Positions 3,513 through 41,668 of a DNA stretch of 64,000 nt are shown piece after piece (position 1 is the stretch's first letter; each line of letters begins with the position of its first letter). Origin of the DNA: Kribbibacterium absianum (GTDB lineage: Bacteria; Actinomycetota; Coriobacteriia; Coriobacteriales; Atopobiaceae); assembly GCF_030067705.1 (NCBI RefSeq), contig NZ_JASJEX010000002.1, forward strand, positions 310,001 to 374,000, read 5' to 3'. Position numbers and translations under genes: made by a program. The notes beneath the pieces are model-generated. The model worked only from the letters and a program-made list of their open reading frames with translations. It ran no database searches and was not told the origin of the DNA.

Positions 3513-3545
3513 ATGTGCATTTAGGGACAGTCCCTAAATGCACAT
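3513..3545. repeat. Palindromic repeat, TTAGGGACAGTCCCTAA family (copy 1)
   Basis: A 33-base palindrome, perfect except for the single central base, with arms GTGCATTTAGGGAC and GTCCCTAAATGCAC. It lies 18 bases upstream of the patatin start. The same 29-base core occurs at 38925-38953, and a variant at 41762-41790. Confidence 0.85.
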
Positions 3546-11950: not shown

Positions 11951-11985
11951 CGCCCCGCCGTTCTGGCGGGGTGTCCCGTTTTAGG
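11951..11985 (+). promoter_or_regulatory. Hairpin leader (possible attenuator) of carbamate kinase
   Basis: CCCCGCC (11953-11959) and GGCGGGG (11965-11971) form a stem with a 5-base loop, followed by TGTCCCGTTTT, 20 bases before the carbamate kinase ribosome site. A terminator-like hairpin inside a 5' leader suggests attenuation, though an upstream terminator is also possible. The rest of 11766-12004 has no gene. Confidence 0.4.
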
Positions 11986-12004
11986 CACTGGGAGGAGCAC
12001 CAGC

Positions 12005-12976
12005 ATGGCTGAGTCCGAATACAAGAAGGCGCCGGGCAAGCCCGACCGTATCGTGGTGGCCCTGGGCGGCAACGCCCTCGGCGACAACCCCAAGGAGCAG
12101 ATGGAGCGCATCAACGTCGCCGCTCCGGCGCTGCTCGACCTCATCAACGAGAAGAGCGAGATCGTCATCACCCACGGCAACGGCCCGCAGGTCGGCATGA
12201 TCCAGAAGGCCTTCGCCATCGCGAGCGACGCGAACCCCAGCGTCCCCGCCATGGACCTGCCCGAGTGCGGCGCCATGTCCCAGGGCTACATCGGCTACCA
12301 CCTGCAGAAGGGCATCGGCAACGAGATCCGTCACCGCGGCAAGCCTTGGCACGTCGCGACCATCGTCACCGAGGTCGAGGTGGACAAGGACGACCCCGCG
12401 TTCGAGAACCCCACGAAGCCCATCGGCCAGTTCCTGACCAAGGAGCAGGCGGACATGCAGAAGCTCGAGAACCCCGACTGGACGTTCGTCGAGGACTCCG
12501 GCCGCGGCTATCGTCGCGTCGTCGCCTCCCCGCAGCCCAAGGCCATCGTGGAGATCGGCTCCATTCGTCACCTGCTTGACGCCGAGTACATCGTCATCGC
12601 CTGCGGTGGCGGCGGCATCCCCGTGTACGAGCAGGACAACGCCCTGGTGGGCGTCGGCGCCGTCATCGACAAGGACCTCGCCGGCGAGCTTCTGGCCGAG
12701 GACGTCGATGCCGAGAAGCTCATCCTGTTGACCGCCGTCGATCACGTGGCCATCAACTTCGGCAAGCCGGACCAGGAGGACCTCACCGACATCACCGTCG
12801 AGCAGGCCAAGAAGTACGTGGAGGAGGGCCAGTTCGGCAAGGGCTCCATGGAGCCGAAGGTCAAGGCGGCCATCAAGTTCGCCGAGTCCCGCCCCGGCCG
12901 CGTTGCCATTATCGGCAGCCTGGAGAAGGCCGCCGCAGCGGCGAACGGCGAGTCCGGCACCCGCATCCACCTGTAG
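12005..12976 (+). CDS. arcC: Carbamate kinase
   Basis: Converts carbamoyl phosphate and ADP to ATP, CO2 and ammonia in the cytoplasm; 323 residues, of normal length. The nucleotide loop is VVALGGNALG at about 15-24; ITHGNGPQVG and IACGGGGIPV are further family signatures. The start at 12005 follows GGGAGGAG. It stands alone with its own terminator, 10 kb from the putrescine carbamoyltransferase locus and 24 kb from the second transcarbamylase cluster. I infer that it serves one or both, since no other carbamate kinase is in the window. Confidence 0.96.
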   Translation: MAESEYKKAPGKPDRIVVALGGNALGDNPKEQMERINVAAPALLDLINEKSEIVITHGNGPQVGMIQKAFAIASDANPSVPAMDLPECGAMSQGYIGYHLQKGIGNEIRHRGKPWHVATIVTEVEVDKDDPAFENPTKPIGQFLTKEQADMQKLENPDWTFVEDSGRGYRRVVASPQPKAIVEIGSIRHLLDAEYIVIACGGGGIPVYEQDNALVGVGAVIDKDLAGELLAEDVDAEKLILLTAVDHVAINFGKPDQEDLTDITVEQAKKYVEEGQFGKGSMEPKVKAAIKFAESRPGRVAIIGSLEKAAAAANGESGTRIHL

Positions 12977-22690: not shown

Positions 22691-23755
22691 ATGGCAAAGG
22701 GTTTCCCGAAGGACTTCATCGACACCAACGAGCTCACGAAGGAGCAGATCCTCCAGATCGTCGACCTGTCCATCGCGATGAAGCGCTGCATCAAGAACGG
22801 CTACTATCCGCCCCTGCTGAAGAACCGCACGCTCGGCATGATCTTCCAGCAGGTCTCCACCCGCACCCGCATCTCCTTTGAGACGGCGATGACGGACCTC
22901 GGCGGCCACGCGCAGTTCTACGGCCCGGGCACCATCCAGCTGGGCGGCCACGAGTCCATCGAGGACACCGCCCGCGTCATGGGGTCGCTCGTCGACGTCC
23001 TGATGGCCCGCGTCGACACCCACGCGGACGTCGTGCAGCTCGCGAAGCACTCCCAGGCCCCTGTGCTCAACGGCATGAGCGACTTCAATCACCCGACTCA
23101 GGAGATCGGCGACCTGATGACGATGATCGAGAACCTCCCCGAGGGCAAGAGGATCGAGGACTGCACGCTCGCCTTCATCGGCGACGCGACGCAGGTCTGC
23201 GTGTCCCTGATGTTCGTCTGCTCCAAGATCGGCATGCACTTCGTGCAGTTCGGGCCCAAGGGCCACCAGATCACCGACGGCGCCCTGATGAAGGACGACT
23301 CCGTGGACCTGCTCGCCATCGGCGAGGCCAACTGCAAGGAGTCCGGCGGCACCATCACGATCAGCGATGACATCGACTGCATCAAGGGCGCGGACTTCAT
23401 CTACACCGACGTTTGGTACGGCCTCTACGACGAGCAGGAGTCCGGCGAGGACTACCTGCAGGTCTTCTATCCCAAGTACCAGGTGACGCCCGAGATGATG
23501 GACTACGCGGGCCCCGACTCCAAGTTCATGCACTGCCTGCCCGCCACGCGCGGCGAGGAGGTCGTGGACGCCGTCATGGACGACGAGCACCGCTCGCTCT
23601 GCTGGGACGAGGCCGAGAACCGCAAGCACTCCATCCGGGGCCTGCTCGCGACCTTCTGCCCCTGGAACGTCGAGACCGACCAGGTGGGCGAGGCCAAGGA
23701 CGAGCTGGTCAAGGCCCTCGCCGCGATGTCCTTCCCCACGGACGTCGTCGAGTAG
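22691..23755 (+). CDS. ptcA: Putrescine carbamoyltransferase
   Basis: Phosphorolyses carbamoylputrescine to putrescine and carbamoyl phosphate. 354 residues. The carbamoyl-phosphate loop STRTR is at 56-60 and HPTQ at 134-137. The features that separate this enzyme from ornithine carbamoyltransferase are all present: GDATQVC, the substrate loop [17 protein letters not shown] and [14 protein letters not shown]-terminal extension follows the core, as expected for PTC. AAAGGAG precedes the start. It heads the operon with the permease and agmatine deiminase. Confidence 0.95.
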
Positions 23756-25383: not shown

Positions 25384-26586
25384 ATGCGCACCATCACCGA
25401 GTCCGAGTCCACGCCTGCGGCCGACGGCTACGCGATGCCCGCCGAGTTCGCCCCGCAGGACCGCGTGTGGATGGGCTGGCCCCACCGCACCGACACCTGG
25501 GCCCACGGCGCCAAGCCGGCCCAGGCCCAGTATGCCAACGTCGCGCGCGCCATCGCGCAGTTCACTCCCGTCTACATGTGCGCCAACGAGTGCGACTACG
25601 CCAACTGCAAGGCCGTCTTCGAGGACGACCCCAATGTGACCGTGGTCGAGATGTCCACCAACGACGCGTGGTTCCGCGACACCGGCGCCACGTTCGTCAC
25701 CAACGGCGAGGGCGGCAAGCGCGCCGTGCACTGGCACTTCAACGCCTACGGCGGCGCCATCGACGGCCTCTACGCGCCCTGGGACTTCGACGAGCAGATC
25801 GCCGTCAAGATGGCCGAGCTGGCCCACGCCGACTGCTACCGCCCGGACGACATGATCCTCGAGGGCGGCTCCATCACGGTGGACGGCGAGGGCACCGTCA
25901 TCGTGACCGACCAGTGCCTGTTGAGCCCCGGCCGCACCGCCTCCGCTGTGCGCGAGGAGCCCGACGAGGACGACATCTGGCCCACCTACGCCAACACCTT
26001 CCAGCCCTGGTCCGAGCCGCTCCGCGCCTACATGACCGAGCACCTCAAGGACTATCTCGGCGTCGAGAAGGTCATCTGGGTCAAGGAGGGCATCGACCCC
26101 TGCGAGACGAACGGCCACATCGACGACGTCGCCACGTTCATTGCCCCCGGCGCCGTGGCCTGCATCTGGACCGACGACCCCGACTACCCGTTCTACCGTC
26201 AGTGCCACGAGGCCTACGAGACGCTGTCCAACGCCGTCGACGCCCAGGGTCGCACGCTCAGGGTGCACAAGCTGCCGATGCCCGTGAAGCCGGTCTACAT
26301 GGACGAGGCCTCCTGCGCGTCCATCGACGTGGACGAGAACGCCGAGCCCCGTGTGCCGGACGAGCCGCTCATCGCGAGCTACATGAACTTCCTCGTGACC
26401 AACGGCGGCGTCATCACCCCGCAGTACGGCGACGAGAACGACGCGCTCGCCATCGAGACGCTGCAGCGCATCTACGACGAGGAGTGGGGCGCCGGTGCCT
26501 ACACCGTGGTGGGCGTCCCCAGCGAGCAGGTGGTGTACGGCGGCGGCAACATCCACTGCATCACGCAGCAGGAGCCGCGCGCCTAA
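25384..26586 (+). CDS. aguA: Agmatine deiminase
   Basis: Hydrolyses agmatine to N-carbamoylputrescine and ammonia; 400 residues, guanidino-group-modifying fold. Conserved segments are WPHRTDTW near the N-terminus, NDAWFRDTGATF (catalytic Asp), EGGSITVDG, CETNGHIDDVATF (catalytic His-Asp) and the nucleophilic cysteine near residue 392 in GGGNIHCITQQEP. The start follows GAAAGGAACC. It works with ptcA and the permease upstream; the carbamoyl phosphate produced would go to the carbamate kinase at 12005. Confidence 0.96.
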   Translation: MRTITESESTPAADGYAMPAEFAPQDRVWMGWPHRTDTWAHGAKPAQAQYANVARAIAQFTPVYMCANECDYANCKAVFEDDPNVTVVEMSTNDAWFRDTGATFVTNGEGGKRAVHWHFNAYGGAIDGLYAPWDFDEQIAVKMAELAHADCYRPDDMILEGGSITVDGEGTVIVTDQCLLSPGRTASAVREEPDEDDIWPTYANTFQPWSEPLRAYMTEHLKDYLGVEKVIWVKEGIDPCETNGHIDDVATFIAPGAVACIWTDDPDYPFYRQCHEAYETLSNAVDAQGRTLRVHKLPMPVKPVYMDEASCASIDVDENAEPRVPDEPLIASYMNFLVTNGGVITPQYGDENDALAIETLQRIYDEEWGAGAYTVVGVPSEQVVYGGGNIHCITQQEPRA

Positions 26587-33523: not shown

Positions 33524-33659
33524 GCCGAACCCGCTACCGGAAGAACCGCTGCGAACTCTCCGCTAGGTCGTCCCAGCAAAAACTAAAAACTGCAGCAACT
33601 TGTAAAAACCACAGCAAACCGTAAAAATGGCATCAACCAGTAAACGAGAGGAGCATCTC

Positions 33660-34739
33660 GTGGCGAGCAATCCCTTTAACCCGGGTTTTGGCCATGTGCC
33701 GGCTCGTATTGCGGGCCGTGCGGCGATTCAAGCGGACCTGCGCCAGGCGCTCGAGGTCGGCAGGGACGACCCGAATCTCTGCACGCTCTTAGTTGGCCCG
33801 CGGGGCACGGGCAAGACCGCTCTTCTCAACCTTTCGCTGCGCTGGGCCCAGGAGCTCGACTGGGCGGTGGCCAGCGTCACCACTGGCCCTGACATGCTCC
33901 AGCAGGTGATTGAGCAAACCATGCTTGCCGTCCAGAAGCTGCCTCATGTGGACGGCGTCAAGGTGAAGACGCCGGTTGTCGAGGTTTCCCTTACGGGCGG
34001 TCTGGCGGAGACCGGCACATGGCGAACTCGCATGTCGCTGCTTCTCGATGCCTTGAATGCAAAAGGTCGCGGGCTTCTCATCTGCGTTGACGAAGTCCTT
34101 GCCCAAGATCCCGCGCTCGTGTCTCTTGTGGCGGACTACCAGCAGCTCTCGGCATCCGAGGGCAAAAAGGTCGCGTTGTTTATGGCCGGCCTTCCGGACA
34201 ACGTGCGCGACGTCAAGAAGGACAAGATTGCCTCGTTCTTGCGCCGAGCCCGCATGCAACAGCTGGGAGCCATTCCGTCCGGAGACGTGCGCGAGGCGAT
34301 GACCCTGTCGTTTGCTGACTCCGGGCAGACGATTGAGCCTCGAGCGCTCGATTCCATGATCACCGCGATTGCTGGTTATCCCTATCTCTTCCAGCTGGTG
34401 GGCTATTACACCTGGCGCTATGCGCAGGGAGCCGGGGTTGTGACGGCACAGCACGCAGGGCCGGGGATTGAGTCCGCGCGAGATGAAATGCGCGAGACGG
34501 TGATTGATGCAACGCTGGCGGACCTGTCCGACGGCGACCTGTCTTTCTTGGCGGCCATGCTTCCCGACCAGGAGAAGTCCACCCTAATAGACCTAGGGCA
34601 ACGCCTGGGGCGCAGCTCCGGGCATGTAAGCACCTACAAAAAGCGCCTTCTGCGTGCCGGCGTCATTACCACCGTGGGTCGCGGACGCGTCCGCTTCGCC
34701 CTGCCCGGGCTTCGGGAGGCTCTGGAGGAGGAGTCCTAG
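33660..34739 (+). CDS. P-loop ATPase of unknown role (AAA_16-like)
   Basis: 359 residues from GTG 33660, chosen because GAGAGGAG stands 6 bases upstream; an ATG at 33627 has no such site. Starts SNPFNPGFGHVPARIAGR. Walker A GPRGTGKTAL is near residue 45 and Walker B LLICVDEVLAQD near 145. The C-terminal 90 residues contain a winged-helix-like part (LGQRLGRSSGHVSTYKKRLL, then VGRGRVRFALPG). Similar proteins are stand-alone cytoplasmic ATPases whose function is not known. Its base composition is lower in GC than that of neighbours, which may indicate acquisition. Confidence 0.8.
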   Translation: MASNPFNPGFGHVPARIAGRAAIQADLRQALEVGRDDPNLCTLLVGPRGTGKTALLNLSLRWAQELDWAVASVTTGPDMLQQVIEQTMLAVQKLPHVDGVKVKTPVVEVSLTGGLAETGTWRTRMSLLLDALNAKGRGLLICVDEVLAQDPALVSLVADYQQLSASEGKKVALFMAGLPDNVRDVKKDKIASFLRRARMQQLGAIPSGDVREAMTLSFADSGQTIEPRALDSMITAIAGYPYLFQLVGYYTWRYAQGAGVVTAQHAGPGIESARDEMRETVIDATLADLSDGDLSFLAAMLPDQEKSTLIDLGQRLGRSSGHVSTYKKRLLRAGVITTVGRGRVRFALPGLREALEEES

Positions 34740-35642: not shown

Positions 35643-35734
35643 AGAAACTGTGAAGGGGATTCGGTGCCCCTGCGGCTAATATTGTCCCTAGATAAAGTTA
35701 TGCGCCTAGCACAGTTGACCATAAAGGAGCGGCC

Positions 35735-36406: not shown

Positions 36407-36561
36407 GCGACGGGCGGCCACGAGGTCATACGGTCGGTGCGACCCCCATGGTCTCGTGATGGATTCTCAGAGCGAAGTCGCGCCGAACCCCATGGGATTC
36501 GCCCGTTCGGCCGGCCAAACCTTCCGCTGACCCTCAGATATTGGTCGCGACAAAAATTGAC

Positions 36562-36626
36562 TTGACATAAATTGCGGAGTCCCCCTATTCTCATGCCATC
36601 GAATTGACCACGAATAAATTTGGTCA
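36562..36626 (+). promoter_or_regulatory. Promoter and candidate operator of the second transcarbamylase cluster
   Basis: TTGACA (36562-36567) and TATTCT (36586-36591), 18 bases apart, give the clearest promoter in this region. Just downstream, TGACCA (36605-36610) and TGGTCA (36621-36626) form an inverted repeat with a 10-base spacer, well placed to block transcription. Confidence 0.6.
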
Positions 36627-36652: not shown

Positions 36653-37756
36653 ATGAGAGTCCCACCCAAGCTACGCCGGAACAACCACCTGGTTAGCACA
36701 GCGGATCTGTCCGCCAAAGAGCTGCGTGACATCCTGCATCTGATGAAGCTGCTCAAGGACGCCCATGTCCAGGGCGTGCAGCTGCCGCTCCTCAAGGACA
36801 AGGTGCTCGCGATGATCTTCGAGATCAGCTCCACGCGCACCCGCTGCTCGTTCGAGAACGCGATGACGTACCTGGGTGGCCACGCCGAGTTTCTCGCGAT
36901 GAGCAACCTGCAGATCGGCGACGGCCATGAATCTATGCGCGACACCGCCGAGGTCATCAGCCGCATGTGCGACGGAGTGATCATGCGATGCAACGACCAT
37001 GCCTACCTCGAGGAGTTCGCCAGGTACTCCTACGTGCCGGTGTTCAACGGCATGACGATGGACGGCCACCCCACCCAGGTGCTCGCAGACGTGTTCACGA
37101 TGATGGAGCACCTGCCGGGCGTGCCGTTGCAAGACGTGACCGTCATGTACATGGGCGACAACAACGACAACGCCGACAAGCTGGTGCCGATCCAGCGCGA
37201 GATGATGTGGATGTGCGCGAAGCTCGGCATGACCTATATCGCCTGCGGGCCCCGTGCCATGTGGCCCAACGAGGCCGACACCGCTCAGTTCGAGCGCTTT
37301 GCCGAGGAGAACCACTCGGGCGCTCGTCTCATTTGCACTGAGGACCCGTTCGAGCACATCGCGGACGTCGACTTCACGGTCTCCGATTCCTTTGTCTACG
37401 GCATGCCGGAAGGCCCGGCGTACGACGCCCGTCGCGCGGCCCTGATGCCTTATCAGGTGAACCAGGCCCTGGTGGATGCTGGCAAGCCGAGCCTCGGGGT
37501 TCTCCACTGCCTGCCCTGCGAGCGTGACTGCGAGGTCACGTCCGAGGTGCTCGACGGCCCCAACTCCCTGGCCTTTGAGGAGGCCGAGAACCGCCTCCAC
37601 GCCCAGAAGGCGATCCTCGTCTGGTTCATGTACGCAGATCCGACGCCGCCCGAGCTCACCACCTACCACATGGGCAAGGTCGAGGGCTTCCTGCACGGTG
37701 CCGAGCGCGACGTGCCGTCCTCCGTCTACCACCTGGACCACTCGGAAGAGCAGTAA
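36653..37756 (+). CDS. Divergent transcarbamylase A (ornithine/putrescine carbamoyltransferase superfamily)
   Basis: 367 residues. The carbamoyl-phosphate motifs are intact: STRTR (60-64), HPTQ and HCLP. The substrate-side motifs are not those of known enzymes: GDNNDNADKL in place of GDATQV or the ornithine-type GDxxNN, FVYGMPEGP in place of the SMG loop or WYGLYDE, and HCLPCERDCEV. The start at 36653 follows AGAAAGGG. It is first in a four-gene cluster with a close paralogue 24 bases downstream. I infer a transcarbamylase for a substrate other than ornithine or putrescine; automatic tools would probably call it ornithine carbamoyltransferase. Confidence 0.85.
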   Translation: MRVPPKLRRNNHLVSTADLSAKELRDILHLMKLLKDAHVQGVQLPLLKDKVLAMIFEISSTRTRCSFENAMTYLGGHAEFLAMSNLQIGDGHESMRDTAEVISRMCDGVIMRCNDHAYLEEFARYSYVPVFNGMTMDGHPTQVLADVFTMMEHLPGVPLQDVTVMYMGDNNDNADKLVPIQREMMWMCAKLGMTYIACGPRAMWPNEADTAQFERFAEENHSGARLICTEDPFEHIADVDFTVSDSFVYGMPEGPAYDARRAALMPYQVNQALVDAGKPSLGVLHCLPCERDCEVTSEVLDGPNSLAFEEAENRLHAQKAILVWFMYADPTPPELTTYHMGKVEGFLHGAERDVPSSVYHLDHSEEQ

Positions 37757-37779
37757 CCCTCAGGAAGGAGATCCATCCC

Positions 37780-38907
37780 ATGAACCCTGCCCAGACCAAG
37801 CGCGCCGAGACCTGCGCCCTGCGCGTTAACCCCCAGCTCACCGACCACGACCACTACCTTGACTGGAAGGACCACACCCGCGAGGAGGTGCTGCGCGTCC
37901 TCGAGGTGACGCGCCTGCTCAAGGAGGCCCACCGCCAGGGCGTGCGCCCGCAGATCCTCTCGGGCAAGGTGCTCGGCATGATGTTCTTCGAGAGCAGCCT
38001 CCGCACCCGCGTGTCCTTCGAAGCGGCCATGGCCCAGCTGGGCGGCCACGCGGAGTTCCTGACGCCCAAGACCATGCATGTGGGCGATGGCAACGAGTCC
38101 ATGCGCGACACCGCCGAGGTGCTCTCCCGCATGTGCGACGCCATTCTGATCCGCGCCGAGGACGACGCCGTGACCCGCGAGTTCGCGAAGTTCTCCTATT
38201 GCCCCGTGATTGACGGCGGCGGCATGAGCTACCACCCGAGCCAGGTCATCGCGGACGTCTTCACGATGCAGGAGCACCTGCCGGGTGTGCCCTTTGAGGA
38301 CATGACCGTGATGTTCATGGGCGACAACAACAACGACTCGCAGTTCGCCTGCGTGCCGGTTCAGCGCTCGCTGATGAACATCTGCGCGATTCTCGGCATG
38401 CGCTACATTGCCTGCTCGCCGGAGTCGCTGCAGCCGACGGCCGAGGACGTCGCGACGTTCGAGCGTCTGGCGGAGCTCAACGGTTCCGGCGCTCAGTTGG
38501 TCGTGACGGACGACCCGGACGAGCACATCGCCGAGGCGGACTTCCTGGTGGGAGAGGTCTTCACCTTCAAGGGCATGGCCGAGCACACGGGCCTTTCGGA
38601 CGAAGAGCTCCGGGCCGTGCGCTGGGACGTGCTGTACCCCAAGTACCAGATCAACGCCGAGCTGGTGGCCAAGGCCAAGCCCACGGTGGGCGTCATGCAC
38701 TGCATGCCCGGCAATCGCGACGAGGAGATCACCACCGAGGTCTGGGATGGTCCGCACTCCCTGCTCTTCGAGGAGGCCGAGAACCGCCTCCACGCCCAGA
38801 AGGGCATCTGCGCCTGCGTGATGTACGACGGCGAGCCGCCCGCGCCGCTGGTCGCGTACCACACCGGCCGCGTCGAGGCCGCCCTGGCGGAGACCCTGGC
38901 CTACTAG
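37780..38907 (+). CDS. Divergent transcarbamylase B, altered carbamoyl-phosphate motifs
   Basis: 375 residues, a paralogue of the previous gene: same GDNNN loop, HLPGVPFEDMTVMFMG, and ENRLHAQKG near the end. Key motifs differ: SLRTR (73-77) instead of STRTR, HPSQ instead of HPTQ, HCMP instead of HCLP, and EVFTFKGMAEHTG as substrate loop. It may be a specialised enzyme or a partner subunit for the first paralogue (family members are trimers with active sites at subunit interfaces). AAGGAGATCC precedes the start, 24 bases after gene A. Confidence 0.83.
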   Translation: MNPAQTKRAETCALRVNPQLTDHDHYLDWKDHTREEVLRVLEVTRLLKEAHRQGVRPQILSGKVLGMMFFESSLRTRVSFEAAMAQLGGHAEFLTPKTMHVGDGNESMRDTAEVLSRMCDAILIRAEDDAVTREFAKFSYCPVIDGGGMSYHPSQVIADVFTMQEHLPGVPFEDMTVMFMGDNNNDSQFACVPVQRSLMNICAILGMRYIACSPESLQPTAEDVATFERLAELNGSGAQLVVTDDPDEHIAEADFLVGEVFTFKGMAEHTGLSDEELRAVRWDVLYPKYQINAELVAKAKPTVGVMHCMPGNRDEEITTEVWDGPHSLLFEEAENRLHAQKGICACVMYDGEPPAPLVAYHTGRVEAALAETLAY

Positions 38908-38924
38908 CCCATCAATCTCACAAC

Positions 38925-38953
38925 GTGCATTTAGGGACAGTCCCTAAATGCAC
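38925..38953. repeat. Palindromic repeat, TTAGGGACAGTCCCTAA family (copy 2)
   Basis: The 29-base core is identical to that in 3513-3545. It lies inside the cluster, between transcarbamylase B and the deiminase, 16 bases before the latter's start. Confidence 0.85.
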
Positions 38954-38968
38954 ATGAAGGAGGAAACC

Positions 38969-40372
38969 ATGAAGAAGCGCATGGCCGCTGAGTGGGAGCC
39001 CGCCGTCGGCGTTCTTGTCGCATGGCCCGCGTCGCTGCCCCAGGCCCTGCTCGTCAAGCTCACCAATGACACCAACGTCCACTTCCTGTGCGCCGATGAG
39101 GACGCGACCGCCGAGGCCGCCGAGACGCTCTCCCAGATGGGCGCCAACCTCGAAAACGTGAGCTACCTCATCGTGCCCAAGGGCGACGATTCCACGTGGC
39201 CGCGCGATTGGGGCCCGCAGCCCCTCTTCGACGAGGACGGGAACTACTACGTCATCGGCCCGCGCTACGTGCTGTCCACGCCGTTCTGTGGCACAGAGCA
39301 CGAGCCCGAGCTCTTCTGCGCTCCTTGGGGCGAGGAGAGGACCCCGCTCAGCCAGTTCGAGGGCGACACTTCCGACGACCTCGCCGCCGAGGCCATCGCG
39401 CGCCAGCTCCGTCTGGGCTATATCAAGGCGCCCTTCGCTTTCACCGGTGGCAACGTGCTCAACGACGGCGTTAACACCATTCTCTCCACCGAGGTCCTCA
39501 TAGCCGAGAACCGCTTCCAGGGCCAGTCGCCCGAGGCCTACTTCACCAACGTGGCCAAGGCCACCGGCATGACCAACTACATCGTGCTCTCGGATTACGA
39601 GCACTTCTCGCTCAACCATGTGGACTGCTTCCTGAAGCCGCTCGACGAGCGCAGGCTCCTGGTGGTGCGTCCCCCCAAGGACCATGAGCTTTACCCCGTC
39701 TACCAGGACATCGTCGAGAACGAGATCCCTCGCTGCACCAACTCGTACGGCGATCCCTGGGAAGTGGTTCCGGTTGATTCGGGCGTCGTTCGCTCGGGGG
39801 AGGGCATCGCCGCGTACGTCAACTCCCTGATCCTCAACGATTGCGTCTACGTGCCGATGTACGGCATCCCGGAGGACGAGCGGGCGCTGCAGCAGTGGCG
39901 CGATGCGATGCCCGGCTATGACGTGCAAGGCTTCACGTTCGAGGTGGCCGACGAGCCGTTTGCCTATAACCCGGACGGCCTGTACGGCGAGGTGGGCTGG
40001 GACCCGGGCGATGTGCTCCACTGTCGCACTCGCGCCATTTGGGATCCCCAGATGCTGCATGTGGACGTGCCCGGGCCCGTTGGCACGCCCGGTGCCGAGG
40101 GCCCCGTCACGGTCGTCGCGAACATCCATGCCTACAGCGCTCGTCCGCTCGTGGCCGAGAAGACCAACCTCTGCTGGCGTGTGTCCGGTGGCGAGTTTCA
40201 GGCTGTGCCGCTCAAGCCGGGGAGCGCCCATGACCAGTATGCGGCCGACATTCCTGCGCAGCCGGCGGGCACCACGGTCGAGTACTACGTCGAGTGCGGC
40301 GACGAGTCGGGTCGCGTCAACACGAGCCCACACGGGGCGCCCAAGCAGTTCCTGAGCTACGTCGTCGCATAG
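38969..40372 (+). CDS. Agmatine/peptidylarginine deiminase-family protein with C-terminal Ig-like domain
   Basis: 467 residues from ATG 38969, after AAGGAGG. The fold is that of agmatine deiminase and bacterial peptidylarginine deiminase (PF04371): STWPRDWGPQ with Asp80, FTGGNVLND, LNHVDCFLKPLD (His-Asp near 217-219) and the presumed nucleophile near residue 352 in VLHCRTRAIWD. Residues about 370-467 form a beta-rich Ig-like domain (VTVVANIHAYSARPLVAEK, then VEYYVECGDESGRVNTS), as in the Porphyromonas gingivalis enzyme. Unlike that secreted enzyme there is no signal peptide. The substrate is unknown; the neighbours suggest a small guanidino compound whose ureido product feeds the transcarbamylases. 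Confidence 0.82.
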   Translation: MKKRMAAEWEPAVGVLVAWPASLPQALLVKLTNDTNVHFLCADEDATAEAAETLSQMGANLENVSYLIVPKGDDSTWPRDWGPQPLFDEDGNYYVIGPRYVLSTPFCGTEHEPELFCAPWGEERTPLSQFEGDTSDDLAAEAIARQLRLGYIKAPFAFTGGNVLNDGVNTILSTEVLIAENRFQGQSPEAYFTNVAKATGMTNYIVLSDYEHFSLNHVDCFLKPLDERRLLVVRPPKDHELYPVYQDIVENEIPRCTNSYGDPWEVVPVDSGVVRSGEGIAAYVNSLILNDCVYVPMYGIPEDERALQQWRDAMPGYDVQGFTFEVADEPFAYNPDGLYGEVGWDPGDVLHCRTRAIWDPQMLHVDVPGPVGTPGAEGPVTVVANIHAYSARPLVAEKTNLCWRVSGGEFQAVPLKPGSAHDQYAADIPAQPAGTTVEYYVECGDESGRVNTSPHGAPKQFLSYVVA

Positions 40373-40456
40373 GAGCGCGATCCCACGAATCGTTCAGCTA
40401 CGGACGTGTTGGCCCCCGACACGTCCCATCCCATCCCTCCCGAAGGAGGTCTCGCA

Positions 40457-41668
40457 ATGCAGCTCTCCAAGATGCAAAAGACGCTGCTCATCGCCGCAAT
40501 CATCATCTCCAACGTAGCCGTCATGGGCGACTACGCCGTGTATCCCATCGTCGACGGCCTCTACTCGCTCTTTGGTGATCAGACTGGCTGGGTGGACACC
40601 TGGGTGGCCATGCCCCAGTGGGTGCAGGTCGTCTTCTCGTTTGCTGCGGCCGCGTTGCTGACGCGCATGTCCACCAAGGGCGTGCTGCTGCTCGGTGGCG
40701 TGTGCTTCACGGTGGGTGGCCTGTTCGGCGCCATTGTCCCCGCCATCGAGTTCATGACGTTCATGCGCTTCCTGTTTGGCGTGGGCATCGCGCTCGTCAA
40801 CGTGGCTGGCGTCTCCGTGCTGGCCCAGGCGTTCACCGACGAGGGCGAGTACAACAAGGTCATGGGCTGGTACAACGCTGGGCAGGCCTTGATTGGCGCC
40901 GGTATCTCCGCCCTGGCCGGCAACTTGGCCCTGCTGGGCTGGTCACACGTGTTCTGGATCTTCATCGCCGCAGCGGCCATGACGGTCATGTTTGCGGTGT
41001 TCGTTCCCACGCTGCGGGACGAGGAAATGGCGGAGGAGGGCGTATCCGGCCCGACCGGCATGGTCTCCGGCGCCTTCTGGCTCGCTGCCATCGCTGTGAT
41101 CGTGTTCTCCGTGGGCTACGCCATCGCTTCCTACTACGTGTCCTCCTACGTGATCGAGAACGGCATCGGCAACGAGACCATGGCCGGCTACCTGGGCTCT
41201 GTGGGCACCGTCGGCTCGTTCGTTTTCTGCCTGGGCTATGGCAAGGTCTACGAGAGGATGCACCGCTGGGTCGCCGTGGCCGCCTATGGCCTGTGCGCCG
41301 TCGTGTTCCTGCTGCTTGCCGTGGCGCCGGGCGCGGCTGTTGCCTACGTGGGCTACTTCCTGCTGGGTGTGGGCATGGGCGTCTGCGCGTCCTACAGCTA
41401 CGGCATCGTGCCGGAGCACTGCTCGTCCGACCGTGTGGACTTTGGCATCGCCGTGATGACCGCCGTCATGTGCCTGGGCTACGCCGTGGCCAGCTACTTT
41501 GTCTCCTTCTTGCAGGAGGTCACCGGCACGAGCCTCTACACCCCGATGTTCCTCGTCGCTGCCGTGATGGCGCTGGTGGCCTGTGCGATCGAGGTTGTCT
41601 CGCACGCGGCCGCGTTCCAGCCTAAGGGCACCTGCACTCCGACGCGAGAGGGGCTGCCACAGGCCTAG
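40457..41668 (+). CDS. MFS transporter
   Basis: 403 residues, about 12 membrane helices, major facilitator superfamily. The start at 40457 follows GAAGGAGG. It begins KMQKTLLIAAIIISNVAVMG and has FMRFLFGVGIALVNVAG with the loop after helix 4. It is the last gene of the cluster and probably imports its substrate or exports the product. The agmatine locus uses APC-type permeases instead, which supports a different compound here. Confidence 0.9.
   Translation: MQLSKMQKTLLIAAIIISNVAVMGDYAVYPIVDGLYSLFGDQTGWVDTWVAMPQWVQVVFSFAAAALLTRMSTKGVLLLGGVCFTVGGLFGAIVPAIEFMTFMRFLFGVGIALVNVAGVSVLAQAFTDEGEYNKVMGWYNAGQALIGAGISALAGNLALLGWSHVFWIFIAAAAMTVMFAVFVPTLRDEEMAEEGVSGPTGMVSGAFWLAAIAVIVFSVGYAIASYYVSSYVIENGIGNETMAGYLGSVGTVGSFVFCLGYGKVYERMHRWVAVAAYGLCAVVFLLLAVAPGAAVAYVGYFLLGVGMGVCASYSYGIVPEHCSSDRVDFGIAVMTAVMCLGYAVASYFVSFLQEVTGTSLYTPMFLVAAVMALVACAIEVVSHAAAFQPKGTCTPTREGLPQA

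Follow-up and report, generated by a model that had tools for sequence, protein, structure and literature searches.

The window analysed here, 64 kb of Kribbibacterium absianum DNA (positions 310,001 to 374,000 of contig NZ_JASJEX010000002.1), carries a cassette of five genes in the order TetR-family regulator, transcarbamylase TC1, second transcarbamylase TC2, deiminase and MFS transporter. The deiminase resembles PPAD of P. gingivalis, and the cassette is considered here as a candidate operon for the breakdown of a guanidino compound. Its coordinates are window positions and are collected in Table 1. The original prediction, made from the same DNA, had described two tandem transcarbamylases, a deiminase with an Ig-like tail and an MFS transporter beside a TetR gene, and the domain and fold matches agree with this description. 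TC1 and TC2 matched the OTCace_N and OTCace domains with E-values of 4e-43 to 7e-33, and all reading frames of the cassette are open. The deiminase gene probably starts at the ATG at 38969 rather than at 38948, since its homologues begin at that residue and AAGGAGGAAACC precedes the ATG.

Table 1. Genes and sequence elements of the cassette, and the agmatine and carbamate kinase genes elsewhere in the window.
Feature	Position	Strand	Remarks
Candidate TetR operator AATATTGTCCCTAGATAAAGTT, upstream of TetR	35678-35699	+	best of all 22-mers in 64 kb
TetR-family regulator, 223 aa	35735-36406	+	PF00440, E 2.3e-10; same place in L005, L010 and L011
Second, weaker operator-like site	36553-36574	+	overlaps TTGACA -35 box; second-best score in window
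Sigma-70-like promoter of TC1, TTGACA-18-TATTCT	36562-36591	+	TTGACA 36562-36567, TATTCT 36586-36591, 18 bp spacing
Inverted repeat TGACC-N12-GGTCA, between promoter and TC1	36605-36626	+	seen in sequence
TC1, transcarbamylase, 367 aa	36653-37756	+	OTCace_N + OTCace; member of new clade
TC2, second transcarbamylase, 375 aa	37780-38907	+	OTCace_N + OTCace; SLRT; acidic specificity residues
Near-perfect palindrome GTGCATTTAGGGACAGTCCCTAAATGCAC, REP-like, TC2-deiminase gap	38925-38953	.	fold z -5.05
PPAD-like deiminase, catalytic domain + Ig-like tail	38948-40372	+	PAD_porph PF04371, E 1.6e-26
MFS transporter, 405 aa	40451-41668	+	MFS_1 PF07690, E 3.1e-36
Carbamate kinase (CK)	11981-12976		above curated cut-off of its TIGR model
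Putrescine transcarbamylase (PTC)	22691-23755		543 bits vs TIGR04384 cut-off 500
Agmatine deiminase (AgDI)	25384-26586		457 bits vs TIGR03380 cut-off 381.8

The distribution of the cassette was surveyed in 399 genomes of the order, representing 123 genera; to judge from gene content, the order lies within Coriobacteriia. The deiminase was found in four genomes from four genera, and the TC1 search returned exactly the same four, with two matches in each (TC1 and a second transcarbamylase). The chance of such co-occurrence would be about 1e-9 if the genomes were independent, a figure that ignores shared descent. The cassette is common to four genera in three families, its conserved unit being TetR, TC1, deiminase and TC2, with an APC permease between TC1 and the deiminase in the three relatives (genomes G010, G208 and G401, with loci L005, L010 and L011, respectively). 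The order in G401 (L011, 1013-7105) is TetR, TC1, APC permease, deiminase, TC2, and the G208 cassette (L010, 4294-10261) is arranged in the same way, ending with its own second transcarbamylase. In G010, the run consists of TetR, TC1, APC, two deiminases, TC2, two APC and a CK, while a third deiminase lies on the opposite strand, giving three deiminase copies and three APC permeases. The CK belongs to this run although further CKs are present at the G010 agmatine locus, and AgDI and CK genes lie directly upstream of the G208 cassette. Between genera, TC1 is 66-81% identical and TC2 80%, the second transcarbamylase of G208 belonging to a different branch. A scan of genome contigs gave one distant match, from Arthrobacter (24%), as its sole match; in the plasmid scan, the deiminase matched only AgDI-type enzymes (24-29%) and TC1 matched a PTC-like gene (40%) in an ordinary-looking Vibrio agmatine operon.

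The APC gene is missing from the window. The original prediction counted the MFS transporter as part of the cluster, but a core membership was not borne out: the relatives carry a permease of the APC family, and their three loci yielded no MFS homologue. The MFS protein is possibly a local member, at best a substitute for that permease. Its comparison with the PDB gave only spurious matches to designed proteins over 28 residues, from which a substrate cannot be read.

The closest solved relative of the deiminase by sequence is PPAD (E = 1e-27, and 7e-48 in a profile search), matched over both domains. The predicted fold aligned with PPAD (4ytb) over 475 columns (TM = 0.84 by target, E = 1.4e-34), and the Ig-like tail was modelled as seven strands, mostly with a pLDDT of 85-95. 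Agmatine deiminases and related single-domain enzymes came next in the fold search, at E = 4e-19 or weaker, and on the agmatine deiminase model TIGR03380 the protein reached 35.4 bits over 43 residues, against a cut-off of 381.8. The catalytic residues D87, H224, D226, N297 and C359 are invariant in six homologues and match D130, H236, D238, N297 and C351 of PPAD; the Cys/His/Asn triad and the guanidinium-binding Asp pair are thus present together with the catalytic and Ig-like domains. In PPAD, R152 binds the carboxylate of the substrate and is indispensable, while R154 and Y233 assist (PMC4487231). Both arginines belong to a part of PPAD, between chain positions 97 and 113, that could not be aligned. 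As judged from the alignment and not from a ligand complex, the cassette deiminases have some 30 additional residues there, with no Arg or Lys conserved among them. At the position of Y233, the aligned homologues have Ser or Asn. As the catalytic domain lies at the very start of the protein, there is no place for a signal peptide. Taken together, this suggests that the deiminase is cytosolic and, unlike PPAD, does not hold its substrate by a C-terminal carboxylate.

In the transcarbamylase tree, TC1 and TC2 of all four genomes grouped together as a clade (99/99) that lies towards PTC but is separate from both OTC and PTC. Only this grouping is relied on, as the tree contains long branches (YgeW and TC3, described below) and the ATCases were unstably placed. 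The superfamily motifs SxRT, HPxQ and HxLP are represented by STRT, HPTQ and HCLP in TC1 and by SLRT, HPSQ and HCMP in TC2, and all the carbamoyl-phosphate residues are retained in both. We considered that TC2 might be inactive and rejected this, its SLRT, HPSQ, HCMP and ENR being intact; a knotted, YgeW-type identity was likewise rejected (36-54 bits against cut-offs of 453-500). Both enzymes had been predicted to lack the signatures of the ornithine and putrescine enzymes. The ornithine signature is indeed absent from both, which have neither the DxxxSMG loop nor the Lys before STRT (Ile in TC1). The PTC signature consists of a 230-loop of the form (Y/W)(G/W)(V/L/I)x and a Gln two residues before STRT (PMC3282769); it is absent from TC2 (FKGM, Glu/Asp), but TC1 comes close to it (YGM, Ile), and here the prediction holds less well. 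On the putrescine model TIGR04384, TC1 and TC2 scored 299 and 301 bits, well below the cut-off that the PTC of the window exceeds. On the ornithine model TIGR00658 (cut-off 280.85 bits), TC1 scored 300.9 and TC2 272.6; this cut-off does not discriminate, because the genuine PTC of the window also passes it with 301.1 bits.

The C-terminal extension with helix 13 that is typical of PTC is present, with 42-56 residues after ENR compared to 16 in OTCs of the coriobacterial type. The TC2 model (pLDDT 85.8) includes a helix at 355-374, and its best fold match was PTC (4a8p, E = 4.6e-32). In the true TC2 proteins (own, G010 and G401), Glu or Asp replaces the OTC lysine, Asp replaces N167 and Glu replaces D231, and such an acidic pocket would fit a cationic amine. 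The second transcarbamylase of G208, denoted TC2x, has the ordinary Gln, Asn and Asp at the specificity positions, and the second position of the cassette may therefore vary in specificity.

Further deiminase and transcarbamylase genes were seen near the relatives' cassettes and elsewhere. What appears to be one more uncharacterised deiminase cassette lies beside that of G208 (L010, G208:C28, 11117-14919). It comprises another PAD_porph deiminase, which scores 130 bits against the AgDI model (cut-off 382), an MFS transporter and a highly divergent transcarbamylase, TC3, in which HCLP is replaced by HELP. A further set, at L010 16123-19739, consists of AgDI, an APC-like permease and a PTC-like gene whose loop is altered (WYDG, HYLP), so that a string of deiminase cassettes is found on one G208 contig. 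A stretch of G401 (L027, G401:C4, 2461-6560) may encode a further unassigned pathway: after a gene of the arginine deiminase family come a transcarbamylase akin to TC2 (43%; loop WWYHG, HPLP) and a gene resembling a transporter. The host itself also has a divergent transcarbamylase gene of 398 aa (L018, 3276-4472; G000:C1, around 163353-163811), probably of the YgeW type, as read from its length and motifs.

The cassette was predicted to have its own promoter and operator, and both were recovered. A TTGACA or TTGACT occurs at the same place before TC1 in L005, L010 and L011. The G208 locus has three palindromes ahead of TetR and TC1, namely AATATTATCTTTAGATAATATT and two variants of it, and a weight matrix was trained on these three L010 sites alone. 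The site at 35678 received a matrix score of 19.1, while the best site outside the cassette in the 64 kb window scored 8.7; the second rank in the window, at 36553, fell in the TC1 promoter region. The top five sites in L005 and the top three in L011 also lie before TetR or TC1. Whole genomes were scanned with the consensus, allowing up to three mismatches, and with the reversed consensus as a control. The site at 35678 was the only match in the 2.18 Mb host genome, with none in the control. In all, a single match, with three mismatches and in G208, lay outside the cassettes, and the reversed control gave zero. The sites of G010 are more degenerate, and none of them matched at up to three mismatches. 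These results are good evidence that one TetR acts on its own cassette via a common operator, and membership in the TetR family suggests that it does so as a repressor.

A complete agmatine set elsewhere in the window had been claimed, and PTC, AgDI and CK each exceed their curated TIGR cut-offs; two APC permeases belong to the same set. Besides this CK, no other full-length carbamate kinase was found in the host genome, and arginine deiminase and OTC are encoded on contig C4.

Based on the gene set, its conservation, the intact catalytic residues and the common operator, we consider it fairly likely that the cassette is an inducible, ATP-yielding operon for the fermentation of a cationic guanidino compound, the substrate being a prediction. 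This compound would enter via the MFS protein (the APC permease in the relatives) and the PPAD-like deiminase would hydrolyse its guanidinium to a ureido group and ammonia. Phosphorolysis of the ureido compound by TC1, TC2 or both would then yield an amine and carbamoyl phosphate, from which the CK at 11981-12976 would generate ATP, while the amine would be exported. The neighbouring TetR would repress the operon through the palindromic operator. A catabolic direction is supported by the inclusion of a CK in the G010 cassette despite the other CKs of that genome, and by the AgDI and CK beside the G208 cassette; with the one full-length CK found in the host, these genes also bear out the deiminase-transcarbamylase-carbamate kinase logic that had been proposed. 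The substrate is probably neither arginine nor agmatine. Because the PPAD-type pocket lacks the carboxylate clamp and the TC2 pocket is acidic, the sequences point to a cationic compound close to agmatine that lacks the carboxylate of arginine. Chemistry offers candidates, which are not results, such as homoagmatine, a diguanidine (arcaine) or amidinated polyamines. We give only a small chance to a more elaborate version, in which TC1 and TC2 each have a ureido substrate of their own or assemble into a mixed trimer, and a bis-guanidino or guanidino-polyamine substrate is deiminated in two steps. The acidic pocket of TC2 would then accept an amine still bearing a second cationic group. We know of no deiminase route for this class of compounds, for which such a two-step route, if true, would provide an energy pathway.

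Several observations weigh against a separate guanidino pathway. The cassette in the window lacks a CK of its own, and the host already has arginine deiminase, OTC and the agmatine set, so that the cassette could be a set of isozymes. TC1 passes the NCBI ornithine-carbamoyltransferase cut-off, retains the N and D found at the ornithine positions of OTC and has a YGM near to the PTC loop. Specificity was read from alignments rather than ligand-bound structures, and the deiminase model is weak in the substrate loops, where the pLDDT is below 50. A second, divergent agmatine pathway, in which the PPAD-like enzyme would form N-carbamoylputrescine and TC1 and TC2 would be putrescine transcarbamylases whose loops have changed, the whole being induced in other circumstances, is unlikely. 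The fold, clade position and C-terminal helix of the transcarbamylases are all on the PTC side, the TC1 loop comes near that of PTC, AgDI ranks directly behind PPAD in fold similarity to the deiminase, and the G208 cassette adjoins AgDI and CK. Moreover, no separate AgDI was seen in the G401 assembly, which is 86% complete. However, the other three of the four carriers do have a separate AgDI, the deiminase (35 bits against 381.8) and both transcarbamylases (about 300 against 500) fall far short of the agmatine models, and TC2 has neither the PTC loop nor its Gln.

We assign a slight probability to carboxylate-bearing arginine derivatives, namely free arginine, homoarginine or, as for PPAD, small peptides ending in arginine. 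PPAD, the closest solved relative, is specific for C-terminal arginine, the relatives' transporters are amino-acid or amine permeases, and the OTC score of TC1 would fit; but R152 and Y233 of PPAD are not conserved, the transcarbamylases are without the lysine and the SMG loop by which OTC binds the carboxylate of ornithine, and the deiminase is not exported by a signal peptide. Decay of the cassette, or its operation in biosynthesis, is very improbable. Its patchy distribution (4/399 genomes), the rearranged gene order in the window and the REP-like palindrome before the deiminase gene could be taken in this way, yet the frames are open, the catalytic residues are kept, the transcarbamylases are well conserved between genera and a CK accompanies the cassette in two relatives.

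The REP-like palindrome GTGCATTTAGGGACAGTCCCTAAATGCAC has a second copy in the window (3515-3543) and about 28 copies in the host genome. The copy at 38925-38953 lies just before the ribosome-binding site of the deiminase gene. The element was absent from the genomes of the three relatives and is therefore probably not part of the system; it was possibly moved by a REP-associated transposase, for which no search was made. A recent foreign origin of the cassette was also considered, but the composition of its genes (GC 0.63-0.67, GC3 0.87-0.94) is near that of the window and gives no sign of it. The AAA-type ATPase gene at 33627-34739 has a GC3 of 0.73, compared to 0.87-0.97 in the other genes measured, and may be a recent arrival.

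The cassette shares with the agmatine deiminase pathway (AgDI-PTC-CK) of E. faecalis and E. lenta the grouping of deiminase, transcarbamylase, permease and CK genes and the PTC-like transcarbamylase fold with its C-terminal helix. It differs in its PPAD-type deiminase with an Ig-like tail, in the two transcarbamylases of a separate clade and in its own TetR operator, with the complete agmatine set separate in the same genome. The arginine deiminase pathway (ADI-OTC-CK) has the same overall logic, but ADI belongs to another family and is found on contig C4 with its own OTC, and the cassette transcarbamylases lack DxxxSMG and the Lys before STRT. With PPAD, the deiminase has in common the two-domain propeller and Ig-like architecture and the catalytic Asp/His/Asp/Asn/Cys, whereas it is only about 23% identical, lacks a signal peptide, is operonic with transcarbamylases and has a longer substrate loop in which R152, like Y233 elsewhere, is not conserved.

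The cassette is real, conserved and specifically regulated, and is a variant of the deiminase-transcarbamylase-kinase theme. The proposal of a separate guanidino pathway is partly supported, by the position of the cassette apart from the agmatine set, by its own regulator and by the matching genes of the three relatives, each from another genus. As a general idea, such a pathway is not new. Eggerthella lenta has two complete and two partial agmatine operons, the second complete one being unresponsive to agmatine, for which Noecker et al. (2023) proposed either an erroneous annotation or “metabolism of a related compound” (PMC10234575). A literature search for the TetR/TC1/deiminase/TC2 gene set found no description of it. 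With the cassette, a two-domain deiminase of the PPAD type that lacks a signal peptide is found within catabolic operons in a distant group of bacteria. PPAD has been supposed to derive from a single-domain agmatine enzyme that gained its C-terminal domains later (PMC4487231), and an intracellular two-domain relative makes this proposed origin testable. The cassette also provides a short, testable gene list for a putative guanidine-degrading pathway in relatives of bacteria that live partly on arginine and agmatine.

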